From contig NZ_CAJWCF010000042.1 in assembly GCF_913020055.1 (NCBI RefSeq), positions 1-37,941 of the forward strand: a stretch of 37,941 bases of DNA, written 5' to 3'. The DNA is from an uncultured Paraglaciecola sp. (lineage in GTDB: Bacteria > Pseudomonadota > Gammaproteobacteria > Enterobacterales > Alteromonadaceae). Both the position numbers and the translations under genes were made by a program. Under the pieces are notes generated by a model, which saw only the letters and a list, made by a program, of their open reading frames with translations, made no database searches and was not told the origin of the DNA. This document shows, one piece after another, positions 16,073-37,869 of the stretch; position 1 is the stretch's first letter; every line of letters begins with the position of its first letter.

Positions 16073-16621
16073 TTAAAAAGCTGGCTTTTCTTCCGCTTCT
16101 TCGTACAACTTAACACTGTTGACGAGTTCCGCTTTAGCCGACGCTGCGTCTTCCCAGCCTTCAATTTTTACCCATTTGTTAGGCTCTAAATCTTTGTAAT
16201 GCTCAAAGAAATGCTGAATTTGATGTTTAGTCAGTTCAGGTATTTGGTCGATATCAGTAATACCACGATAAATTGTTGATAACTTATCAGCAGGTACCGC
16301 AAGAATTTTTGCATCTATACCAGACTCATCAGTCATTTTTAACACACCGATAGGACGACAACGAATTACAGATCCTGCTAAAAGAGGGAAAGGCGTAATG
16401 ACCAATACATCAGCTGGGTCGCCATCTTCAGACAAAGTGTGTGGGACATAACCATAGTTAGTCGGATAATGCATACACGTTGCCATAAAACGGTCAACAA
16501 AAATGGCACCTGACTCTTTGTCCACTTCATATTTAACTGGATCAGAGTGAGCAGGAATTTCGATTATTACATTAATTTCTTCTGGCAAATTTTTACCAGC
16601 GGGTACGGCATTGAGGCTCAT
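16073..16621 (-). CDS. ppa: Soluble inorganic pyrophosphatase (family I)
   Basis: A 182-residue cytoplasmic enzyme that hydrolyses pyrophosphate to phosphate with Mg2+, pulling biosynthetic reactions forward. Consensus features: [18 protein letters not shown] at the N-terminus, the [11 protein letters not shown] strand, and the metal-binding signature DGDPADVLV near residue 66-74, plus DIDQIP and [10 protein letters not shown] near the end. Length agrees with the 175-180 residues of proteobacterial family I enzymes. It is divergent from the membrane pyrophosphatase gene hppA, with the MITE-like element between them. Having both a soluble and a membrane pyrophosphatase side by side suggests a choice between wasting and conserving the energy of pyrophosphate. 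A promoter with a perfect -10 lies just upstream. Confidence 0.97.
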
Positions 16622-16657
16622 AGTATTACCTAAAGTTGATGAATTTTATTGCGCAAG

Positions 16658-16686
16658 ATTATAGTGCTTAGAGACGCAAGATGAAA
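16658..16686 (-). promoter_or_regulatory. Probable ppa promoter
   Basis: On the minus strand a perfect TATAAT (-10, 16658-16663) lies 17 bases from a poor TTTCAT (-35), about 37 bases upstream of the ppa start codon. Confidence 0.45.
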
Positions 16687-16764
16687 CTCACCTGAGTGAT
16701 TAAAACGCAGACAAGGCACAAATATTGATTAAAACTTGAACTATTGACAAATATCTCGTTATAG

Positions 16765-16793
16765 TTGCACTGTAAATGTAAAGAAATTGTAAA
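16765..16793 (+). promoter_or_regulatory. Possible original hppA promoter, now upstream of the inserted element
   Basis: TTGCAC (-35) and TGTAAA (-10) are 17 bases apart. If used, the transcript would run through the whole MITE-like element before reaching the hppA start codon, so the element would form most of the mRNA leader. Confidence 0.4.
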
Positions 16794-16879
16794 CAAAACA
16801 ATAAAATAGCCATGTACTCATGAAAGTTGTAAGCAATGGGAGATTGGCGTAATTGAATTGCAAGGTGAACCTATTATTA

Positions 16880-17142
16880 GGGGCTGTTGATCTTTCATAC
16901 GTCCTCGAGACTGAGGTCATTTATTTGGATACCGAGGCATTTGCCTTGAAGTTTAGTCATTCTAAACGAAAGGTAAGCAACGAAGGTAGGCGAATAAATG
17001 GCCCAGCCCGAAGGGTTTTCCTCAAAACGCACTTACTCGGCGTTGAAAGCTGTTTATTTGGATAACCAAACTTCACAGATTTCGCCTTGATTAAGCACAT
17101 TTTGAGGAAAATCTCGGTGACATATGAAAGATCGACAGCCCC
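16880..17142. mobile_element. MITE-like element with terminal inverted repeats, inserted at the 5' end of hppA
   Basis: A 263-bp non-coding element. The ends, counted with the flanking TA (16878-16903 and 17119-17144), are inverted repeats matching at 24 of 26 positions; the likeness continues with mismatches to about 35 bp. Each end begins GGGGCTGT. TA flanks both ends, consistent with a TA target duplication, as in IS630-type and some IS5-group elements; the parent family was not identified. Inside are a perfect 12-bp inverted repeat (TTTTCCTCAAAA at 17016-17027 and TTTTGAGGAAAA at 17100-17111), a GTTTAG/CTAAAC hairpin, a CCC-gaa-GGG hairpin and an AACGC/GCGTT hairpin. There is no transposase frame. 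The first 73 bases recur at 37869-37941 with one difference, which shows that it is a dispersed repeat. Confidence 0.85.
17104..17126 (+). promoter_or_regulatory. Element-borne ribosome binding site and start codon of hppA
   Basis: GAGGA at 17104-17108 is the best Shine-Dalgarno match before the ATG at 17124, with a somewhat long 15-base spacing. Both lie in the right arm of the MITE-like element: GAGG is inside the internal inverted repeat arm 17100-17111, and the ATG is inside the terminal inverted repeat. Either can therefore be base-paired in the transcript. Confidence 0.5.
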
Positions 17143-19196
17143 TAGTGTTTACTACCAAAGGTTTGCTTTGTGTCATTGTTATATTAACTCTGGGAACCTA
17201 CATGACTGAACTATTTTACTTGCCGCCTATCTTGGGATTTGCTGGCTTAATCTGCGCTTTTGTTATTTACCTTATAATTAAAAAATCCTCTGTTTCTGAT
17301 CCCGCTATTATGAAAATTGGCGACGCTATACATACAGGTGCCATGGTGTTTATGCATCGTGAGTACAAAATGTTGTTCTTGTTTGCCTTGGTAGTCGGAA
17401 TTGCGTTGTATTTTTCTCTGGGTCAGTACACCACTGTGGCTTTCGTTGCTGGTGCACTATGTTCAGCTTTTGCTGGTTATATGGGAATGTTTACCGCGAC
17501 TAAAGCGAATGTCCGTACTACACAAGCTGCTCATGACGAGGGGCCAGCCGCTGCATTGACCATTGCCTTTATGGGTGGTTCAGTAATGGGTTTGTGTGTG
17601 GCATCAATGGGGCTTGTAGGTCTAGGTTCATTATATTGGTTTTTCGGTGGTGATCCAGAAACTGCCCATGTGATCCATGGTTTTGGTATGGGCGCGTCGA
17701 TCGTTGCATTATTTTCGCGGGTAGGCGGTGGGATCTTTACTAAAAGTGCCGATGTTGGTGCTGATTTAGTGGGCAAGATTGAAGCGGGTATTCCAGAAGA
17801 CGATCCGCGTAACCCTGGTGTTATTGCTGATAATGTGGGCGATAATGTAGGTGATGTTGCGGGTATGGGCTCGGACATTTTTGAATCTTATTGTGGTTCA
17901 ATGATTGCCACTATTGCCATTGCATCTACCATGACAGTGGGAGTGTTGGGTAGTCGAGAGTCATTAATGTTTCTGCCTCTGGCGTTGGCTTCAATGGGCT
18001 TGTTATGTTCTGTTGCAGGCATAGTGCTGGTTAAACTAATGTCAGCCAGCAAACCAGAAGTGGCCTTGCGTGCAGGCACTATGTCAGCAGCTGTTATTTT
18101 TATAGCTGCGGCTTATTTTGTGGTTGCCAAATTGGGGGTGGATGATCATGTGTGGTGGGCAGTAGTGGCAGGAGCCGTGGGCGGTATTGTTATAGGCTTA
18201 GTGACTGAATATTATACCGCATCTACGCCAGTACGTAGAATTGCAGAGTCAGGCGAAACGGGTCCTGCGACTGTTATGATTACAGGGTTGGCAGTAGGTA
18301 TGCAATCGGTGGTTGTGCCTGTACTCACAATTTGTGCGATTATTTTTGCATCTACTCAGTTATCTGGGTTGTACGGTGTAGGGATTGCGGCAGTAGGTAT
18401 GTTGGCTACTGTCGGCATTACTATGGCAATCGATGCGTATGGTCCTGTTGCCGATAATGCGGGTGGTATAGCTGAAATGGCCGGATTGGGAGAAGAAACT
18501 CGTGCCATTACGGATTCGCTAGATGAGTTAGGCAATACCACTGCAGCCATAGGAAAAGGGTTTGCAATAGGCGCAGCTGCGCTGGCTGCTCTCGCTATTA
18601 TTGCTGCGTTTATAGAAACGTTAGTGGCTAAGTATCCTGATTTCACCTTGAACTTGGGCAATCCAATGGTATTGATTGGGTTATTTATTGGTGGTTTGCT
18701 GCCATTTTTAATTGCTTCAATCACCATGACTGCCGTAGGTGATGCCGCGTTTGAAATGATCAAAGAGATTCGTCGTCAGTTCCGAGAAATTGAAGGACTA
18801 ATGGAAGGCACAGCTGAGCCAGATAATGCTCGTTGTGTTGATATCGCCACTCAGGCGGCACTGAAAAAAATGATTTTGCCCGGTGTCATTGCTGTAGGTG
18901 TGCCACCTTTAATAGGTTTTGGTTTAGGTGCTTATGCGCTAGGCGGTATGTTAGGCGGTGCCTTATTAGGTTGTGTTTTACTCGCTCTGATGATGGCTAA
19001 CGCTGGTGGTGCTTGGGATAATGCTAAAAAGTATGTAGAAAAAGGCAACTTAGGTGGGAAGGGCTCTGATACCCATGCAGCAGTCGTAGTGGGGGATACA
19101 GTAGGTGACCCATTTAAAGATACTTCTGGTCCTTCTATGAATATCTTGATCAATGTTATGGCAATTGTGAGTTTGGTTATCGCGCCTCTATTGTAG
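17124..19196 (+). CDS. hppA: Membrane-bound ion-translocating pyrophosphatase
   Basis: A 690-residue inner-membrane pump with about 16 hydrophobic helices that couples pyrophosphate hydrolysis to H+ or Na+ export. The substrate site is clear: [22 protein letters not shown] at 210-231 and DNVGDNVGD at 236-244, plus the late motif [14 protein letters not shown]. At [10 protein letters not shown] (470-479) the residue after TT is Ala474, where K+-independent enzymes have Lys, so this is predicted to be K+-dependent; H+ versus Na+ transport is not settled. Codons 1-6 and the first base of codon 7 (MKDRQP) come from the inserted MITE-like element, and native sequence resumes at GTG 17145. Removing the element plus one TA joins this frame to TTG 16853, giving an ancestral start MNCKVNLLLVFTTK with GGGAGA nine bases upstream. 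A good terminator follows. It is divergent from ppa and convergent with fbp. Confidence 0.95.
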
Positions 19197-36963: not shown

Positions 36964-37869
36964 TTGAACGAAAAATCTCTTAAATCGGGTGTTCTTTTTG
37001 CGTTAGCCGCATATTCAATGTGGGGCGTTGCGCCCATGTATTTTAAGTTATTAACTAGCGTGCCTGCTTTAGAAATTGTCATGCACCGGATCGTTTGGTC
37101 CGTGCTTGTGTTGTGTGTGTTGATATTTGTCCGAAAAAAGTTTAGCCAAGTAAGAGCAGCAATTAGAGACCCAAAAATTCTTAAGACGTTACTGATAAGT
37201 GGTTTATTGTTAGCCGTTAATTGGCTTTTGTTTATTTGGGCGGTAAATAACAACCACTTACTTGATGCCAGTTTAGGTTATTTCATCAACCCACTATTTA
37301 ATGTTTTGTTAGCACGTTTGTTCTTGCAAGAACGTCTAACTAGGTTGCAGTTGCTTGCTGTTTTTGTGGCTTTAATGGGAGTGTCTATACTTATTTTTTC
37401 ATACGGCAAGGTCCCTTGGATAGCCCTGACTTTGGCCATTACCTTCAGTATTTATGGGTTGTTGCGTAAAAAAGTGGCGGTCGAATCTATGCCTGGATTA
37501 TTAATTGAAAGCAGTATGATGTTGCCTTTTGCTCTATTGTATTGGCTAATTGCAGATACTTCGAGCGGCAACATGATAGCCAATACTGTGGATCTGAATG
37601 TTATTTTGTTGCTTGCTGGCGTGGTGACTACCGCCCCATTGTTATGTTTTACTGCCGCTGCCAGACGTATTCGTTACACCACTTTAGGTTTTTTCCAATA
37701 TATTGGTCCAAGTATTATGTTTCTACTAGCAGTCATGCTTTATCTGGAGCCTCTTGATAATGCGAGAGTGATAACTTTTGTATTCGTTTGGTCTGCTTTG
37801 CTGATTTATGTTTATGATTCCTATAGGACTTATCGGAAGACTAAGGTTATTTTAATCAAGAACGATTAG
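36964..37869 (+). CDS. rarD: EamA-type transporter RarD
   Basis: A 301-residue inner-membrane protein with about ten helices, a drug/metabolite transporter homologue; the E. coli protein's substrate is not known. The start TTG at 36964 gives MNEKSLKSGVLFALAAYSMWGVAPMYFK, which lines up with the E. coli N-terminus, so it is preferred over the internal ATG. Inner motifs include NWLLFIWAVNNNHLLDASLGYFINPL, typical of RarD. The stop codon TAG at 37867-37869 uses TA of the target site and G, the first base of the second MITE-like element. The protein is about the usual length (E. coli 296), so the insertion falls at the very end of the gene and may have changed only the last few residues. Confidence 0.93.
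   Translation: MNEKSLKSGVLFALAAYSMWGVAPMYFKLLTSVPALEIVMHRIVWSVLVLCVLIFVRKKFSQVRAAIRDPKILKTLLISGLLLAVNWLLFIWAVNNNHLLDASLGYFINPLFNVLLARLFLQERLTRLQLLAVFVALMGVSILIFSYGKVPWIALTLAITFSIYGLLRKKVAVESMPGLLIESSMMLPFALLYWLIADTSSGNMIANTVDLNVILLLAGVVTTAPLLCFTAAARRIRYTTLGFFQYIGPSIMFLLAVMLYLEPLDNARVITFVFVWSALLIYVYDSYRTYRKTKVILIKND

Follow-up and report, generated by a model that had tools for sequence, protein, structure and literature searches.

An IS5-type MITE in the probable leader of hppA, and its terminal inverted repeats as probable donors of translation starts within the genus

Comparison of hppA and its upstream region with relatives demonstrated that the gene keeps its native start codon downstream of the MITE that precedes it in the window (the whole stretch of 37,941 nucleotides that was analysed). 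The hppA case is an ordinary leader insertion in which the start annotation was misled. Elsewhere, the terminal inverted repeats (TIRs) of the same MITE family look like a portable module for starting translation, and this two-part reading, an intact start at hppA and donated starts at other genes, is very probably correct. Orthologue alignments lend good support to the view that this IS5-type family is able to donate translation starts. The initial annotation had proposed a gene split in its first codons and given a replacement start in the correct frame; that mechanism does not hold at hppA, but orthologue comparison supports it at serC, xerC, an alpha/beta hydrolase gene and dctP. The features concerned are listed in Table 1.

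Table 1. Features of the window around hppA and at the contig end
Feature	Position	Strand	Basis or remark
hppA promoter, probable, native, TTGAAC-18-TATAGT, upstream of the MITE	16736..16765	+	Consensus scan and conservation in congeners
Left TIR including TA	16878..16910	+	Outward (minus strand) sequence ATGAAAGATCAACAGCCCCTA
MITE, 263 bp, IS5-type family, TA at both flanks	16880..17142	.	TIRs; copies in own genome and congeners
Right TIR including TA	17112..17144	-	Outward (plus strand) sequence GGTGACATATGAAAGATCGACAGCCCCTA
TIR-borne ATG in the hppA frame, not taken to be where hppA starts	17124..17126	+	P(unpaired) 0.001 in predicted leader
Native leader between MITE and hppA start, not coding-like	17145..17201	+	Codon-position differences, last 51 nt
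Shine-Dalgarno-like GGGA, native, 6 nt upstream of ATG 17202	17192..17195	+	Present in 10 rows of the leader alignment
hppA, membrane pyrophosphatase, from the conserved start	17202..19196	+	Orthologue alignment, NCBIfam NF001961, Pfam PF03030
Second MITE copy, left end, at contig end	37867..37941	+	

The MITE family and its likely parent

The element described upstream of hppA in the initial annotation is real. It is short and bounded by TIRs, as MITEs are; the two arms measure 33 nt each and are 88% complementary. In its own genome (G000, 4.6 Mb in 185 contigs), 23 matches to 16880-17142 were obtained, at least five of them inverted matches within copies already counted, and seven near-full copies with 90-100% identity were recognised, the window copy included. 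Among the 60 genomes searched, the element was matched in its own genome and in 8 of the 59 others, all belonging to one genus, and is hence multi-copy and dispersed. TA is present on both sides of the window copy and of 8 of 20 copies, the other 12 being altered on one or both sides, which is consistent with a target-site duplication. No match was found in Rfam for 16500-17400 at E up to 1, nor in the plasmid collection for 16800-17400.

Six contig ends of G000 (C11, C42, C66, C67, C124 and C134) sit within copies of the family; the assembly seems to break there, so that the copy number may be underestimated. In the second copy of the window, the TAG formed by the TA and the first G of the element is the stop codon of a 301-aa ORF (36964-37869). 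The loci L156, L018, L180, L168 and L218 carry minimal forms, about 50-58 bp long, that scarcely extend beyond the two TIRs.

The congener G021 contains an 852-bp TIR pair flanked by TA, the outer TIR of which is that of the window MITE (with a single mismatch in 16 at one of its ends). It encodes a 249-aa transposase of the IS5 family (NF033580, 280 bits against a cut-off of 110; PF13340 and PF01609 also matched), and this DDE transposase of IS5 type places the element in that family. The window MITE has no transposase gene and shares its TIRs with this autonomous element, as is expected of a MITE, and on these sequence features the 852-bp element is likely the parent type. Among the matches listed for it is a Marinomonas algicola plasmid, which agrees at 82% along the entire length of the element.

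The start of hppA

The ORF finder starts hppA at the ATG 17124, giving a frame of 690 aa, and the initial annotation was correct in placing this codon within the right TIR and in the hppA frame. It was also right that deletion of 16880-17144, which reconstructs the empty site, leaves an open frame from the TTG at 16853. The 57 nt following the right TIR are open in the hppA frame anyway, and chance alone would put an outward TIR ATG in frame in roughly one insertion out of three.

The start was compared in the 16 relatives with a match, namely nine congeners and seven more distant genomes. An ATG aligned exactly to 17202 in 14 of them, including all nine congeners and five of the seven distant ones (G029, G034, G025, G038 and G041). 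The exceptions are G047, whose ATG is displaced downstream by one codon, and G048, which at 48% identity is not alignable at the start. In-frame ATG codons upstream of the conserved start are absent from 14 of the 16; G012 has one at -102, from which its frame is open, and G041 has one at -12. Position 2 of NF001961 aligns to residue 28 of the long hppA ORF, and so position 1 of the family corresponds to residue 27, the ATG at 17202. A scan of genome contigs for HppA yielded at least 589 stretches, and since among the best 80 none exceeded 77% identity and no near relative was found, these stretches were not used for the start comparison. Within the genus hppA is patchy, occurring in 10 of 22 genomes.

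The idea that the MITE supplies the start of hppA is contradicted by this alignment, in which the conserved ATG 17202 stands intact downstream of the element and has not been displaced, and in which the frame of the supposed old start is not continuous. The latter start, TTG 16853, could be anchored in seven of the nine congeners (the anchor motif is absent from G011 and G018). The homologous site is found 83, 83, 83, 85, 85, 98 or 163 nt upstream of the conserved start and is in frame in none of the seven, on which ground TTG 16853 was rejected as the old start; the frame running from this site stops after 10-30 codons, and the codon found there is ATG in five of the seven. The region 17145-17201, previously taken for native hppA coding sequence, does not behave like codons either. 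In the 51 nt preceding 17202, codon positions 1/2/3 carry 20/36/30 differences from six congeners, compared with 292/54/1862 in the gene, the counts leaving out G012 (indel) and the more distant G011 and G018. By these counts the stretch is under no codon constraint.

A promoter consensus scan of the upstream region gave three sites on both strands, against a shuffle mean of 1.7. The site at 16736-16765 is conserved in the alignment of congeners, and the scan found no promoter-like site within the MITE on the plus strand. If transcription begins at 16736-16765, the MITE is part of the leader RNA. The leader also contains an AT-rich block at 16788-16812 (TGTAAACAAAACAATAAAATAGCCA) that is strongly conserved among congeners, and the divergent ORF upstream of hppA (16073-16621) was read, by eye only, as a putative soluble inorganic pyrophosphatase.

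The predicted folding energy of the MITE alone is -121.7 kcal/mol, and in the full leader the ATG 17124 is predicted to be practically never unpaired (Table 1). The native ribosome site has a predicted mean accessibility of 0.66 both with and without the MITE, and the ATG 17202 codon is mostly paired in the prediction (about 0.1 unpaired), again with and without it. The presumed event is the insertion of an IS5-type MITE into a TA of the hppA 5' leader, downstream of the promoter-like site and upstream of ATG 17202. The hppA transcript would run through the element, the paired TIRs would form a hairpin hiding the TIR ATG, and the native ribosome site would be left as accessible as before the insertion.

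Two other readings of hppA have to be considered. According to the initial annotation, the MITE interrupted the gene behind codon 9 and today provides it with a ribosome binding site, a start codon and its initial codons. The in-frame position of ATG 17124, its better anti-SD energy (-10.2 kcal/mol, with an interrupted match, versus -4.2 at 17202) and the four sister copies that look so at other genes speak for this reading, which is nevertheless highly improbable; a start at 17124 was rejected because 17202 is intact and conserved, the old start is off frame in all seven anchored congeners, the upstream stretch is not coding-like and the TIR ATG is predicted to be fully paired. The N-terminus beginning MKDRQP is most likely a mechanical extension of the ORF. 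Alternatively, most HppA could come from 17202, the MITE having added a minor, N-extended form that starts at 17124. The frame is open and an SD-like sequence is present, and when just 100 nt of leader are folded the TIR ATG is 0.64 unpaired in the prediction, so a transcript starting inside the MITE could, according to this model, expose it; extra translation from 17124 is possible if transcription starts within the MITE or if the hairpin is processed. Such a dual start is quite unlikely, given that the codon is predicted to be hidden in the full leader, that the plus strand of the MITE has no promoter-like site by consensus scan, and that the extra residues would place a hydrophobic stretch ahead of the first membrane helix and could disturb membrane insertion. 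The leader insertion with an intact start at 17202 is retained as the preferred reading for hppA.

Outward start codons of the TIRs and the genes they adjoin

In many copies the outward TIR reads GAGG or GGTGA, three to four nucleotides and then ATG AAA GAT CAA CAG CCC CTA; variants of it occur, it is free of stops and its frame exits on a codon boundary. Lacking a stop and ending on a codon boundary, a TIR that lands in frame among the initial codons of a gene would displace the native start and create a new N-terminus, MKDQQPL or similar. All 28 ends of 14 near-full copies carry the outward ATG, compared with none of the 20 ends examined in a related family, a contrast that is partly by construction since the patterns used to locate the ends include the ATG bases. 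An SD-like motif (GAGG, AGGA, GGAG or GGTGA, within 16 nt upstream of the ATG) is present at just 16 of the 28 ends. The related family, found in G003, G004 and G014 (loci among L224-L250), has the TIR GGGGCTGTTGATCTTTGGTG and copies of about 75-370 bp without an outward ATG.

A search with the TIR pattern allowing up to three mismatches gave 114 matches in 22 genomes, the reversed control pattern giving 9. A hand-picked set of 52 loci, not every match, provided 72 TIR-like ends (up to four mismatches, at least 240 nt of flank), some weak ones among them possibly being due to chance. At least 80 open codons lie beyond 9 of these ends in the ATG frame and beyond 1 and 4 in the other two frames; for the 38 ends of a control family the corresponding numbers are 1, 0 and 1. 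The nine ends adjoin hppA, xerC and larE in G000, a histidine-phosphatase gene in both G000 and G019 (one event), the alpha/beta hydrolase gene and dctP in G017, serC in G014, and a 268-aa ORF in G012 (L041) for which a family search found no family. The XerC of G000 scores about 0.6 bits under the cut-off of the XerC model. The statistics of frame are modest and were picked once the data had been seen: 8 of 13 independent events lie in the ATG frame (P 0.035), and Fisher tests gave 0.027 or 0.045 on a table that assumes, by eye, that five off-frame neighbours keep native starts.

Orthologues were searched in the 22 genomes of the genus, and matches, own copy included, were obtained in 21 for serC and 16 for xerC (both at E up to 1e-60), 18 for the hydrolase, 16 for dctP, 10 for the histidine phosphatase and 7 for larE. 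In each of the 20 relatives, serC has a native ATG or GTG close to the junction. The serC of G014 reads MKDKQPL/DIFNFCAGP (a slash marks the junction), with GCAGGAGAATAT ahead of the ATG, and its empty site has an N-terminus of the relatives' kind. The DNA upstream is a diverged full-length MITE copy: compared with 13 copies it matches at 78% over 72 nt (E 2e-11), and its right end is still recognisable. Being strongly diverged, it is probably old, and the serC frame is still open. An own start of xerC is present in all 15 relatives; G000 reads MKEQQPL/YSWLEKY and its empty site MLKPSI/YSWLEKY, resembling the relatives. The hydrolase gene begins with ATG or GTG in 16 of 17 relatives and with TTG in one, and in G017 it reads MIDQQPL/LNKATNPIA; at the empty site the left TA reads AA, and the site was read by eye using the right TA, not recovered by script. 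For the TRAP gene dctP, with ATG in all 15 relatives, G017 reads MKNQQPL/LKRLILL, and the empty site has an ATG two codons ahead of LKR. Identity to the best relative is 90% for xerC, 84% for the hydrolase, 94% for dctP and 77% for serC. Near the relatives' starts of these four genes, no match to the TIR better than 8 mismatches in 20 was found.

In each of the four genes the MITE lies within the first codons, the native start is displaced (for the hydrolase as judged from the empty site read by eye) and the TIR ATG is the sole plausible in-frame start. As the genes are intact and have no other plausible start, we infer from these alignments that serC, xerC, the hydrolase gene and dctP use the TIR ATG.

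The histidine-phosphatase gene retains its native ATG, which abuts the MITE, and the sequence preceding it is that of the MITE. The insertion is common to G000 and G019, whose identity is 98% in the last 60 nt of the MITE, 94% in the next 70 nt and 75% in the gene; further upstream the flank is 92-81% identical, and selection on the MITE end is not proven since the 100 nt before the MITE are also 92% identical. The inserted copy (L012 and L057, about 130 nt before the ATG of this gene) is internally deleted, its TAG seeming by eye to be the stop of the upstream gene, and in G015 (L271) a short remnant of the left MITE end was observed upstream of the gene. In several relatives without the insertion, stop and start overlap (TGATG, by eye). 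At larE of G000 (L211) there is a solo TIR-like 20-mer without a MITE body, seven loci in six other genomes having their own starts; it is possibly a MITE remnant and is not counted among the four replaced starts.

In predictions with a 350-nt leader, the TIR ATG of the intact copies (hppA, xerC, hydrolase and dctP) is 0.001 unpaired and that of the 268-aa ORF 0.006, and the remodelled copies reach 0.53 at serC, 0.46 and 0.17 at the histidine-phosphatase gene and 0.80 at larE. An intact TIR pair is thus predicted to hide the ATG, and xerC, the hydrolase gene and dctP may be poorly expressed or decaying. In the older-looking copies, at serC and the histidine-phosphatase gene, the hairpin is predicted to open where the partner TIR has diverged or been deleted, and the predicted accessibilities fit donated starts that improve as the partner TIR decays.

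It could be argued that the fusions are a coincidence: an outward TIR ATG is bound to match the frame of one neighbour or another, and the genes fused to it are on their way to decay. The modest frame excess (P 0.035) and the predicted tight hairpins at three of the four replaced starts would suit this explanation, but four insertions among the initial codons of well conserved genes that are otherwise open would not, and neither would the open serC of G014 behind a diverged, probably old MITE with AGGAG before its ATG. The histidine-phosphatase insertion, present in both G000 and G019 with 98% identity in its last 60 nt against 75% in the gene, points the same way, selection not being proven there, and mere coincidence is considered unlikely. 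A more far-reaching reading, advanced only tentatively, is that the TIR may be considered as a mobile translation-initiation module that ends the translation of the preceding gene and restarts that of the next, and by which starts within the genus would have been rewritten repeatedly. The outward SD-ATG, the stop-free exit frame and the TAG on the entry side would let the TIR land on gene starts; such starts would be kept weak by the paired TIRs at first and be freed later, once the partner TIR is gone (as at serC and the histidine-phosphatase gene, and perhaps at larE).

Relation to known systems and significance

Mobile elements are usually credited with the donation of promoters. The window family resembles other IS5-family MITEs in sharing its outer TIR with a transposase-encoding element, in its TA flanks and in its many copies, but differs from them by the outward TIR ATG with an in-frame exit and by the displacement of native starts at four genes.

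For MITEAba12 of Acinetobacter, the authors foresaw fusions via start codons at the element ends (PMC6382973); there the possibility was derived from the consensus, whereas in the window family orthologues show displaced native starts in conserved genes. In pneumococcal BOX elements, an ORF leaving the element takes its start codon from boxC at three tested loci and RT-PCR supports the transcript, but the BOX-encoded ORFs are reported to resemble only hypothetical proteins, and the fused products of the window family are conserved enzymes (PMC3049150). ERIC/RU and the Rickettsia palindromic elements are, according to extracts from the literature, also small palindromes fused in frame, some of them N-terminally; in these, element ORFs are fused to or inserted in genes, unlike the replacement of a start by a TIR (PMC2759123, PMC2229807, PMC10969869). 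Correia/NEMIS elements likewise have TIRs and TA flanks, and stem-loop transcripts, proposed cutting by RNase III and ORF fusions are described for them in excerpts of one report; they differ in size (about 107/155 bp) and in occurring in Neisseria, the comparison with the window MITE being one of descriptions (PMC2229807). The main text of a MITE review has neither 'start codon' nor 'ribosome' (PMC10969869), and in the open-licence literature searched no report was found in which a conserved gene takes its start from a MITE TIR in place of its own.

The hppA gene shows how an ORF finder can put a false start within a mobile element. The window MITE family appears to carry a translation start in its terminal repeats, and the orthologues show that conserved genes, serC among them, have had their native starts displaced.
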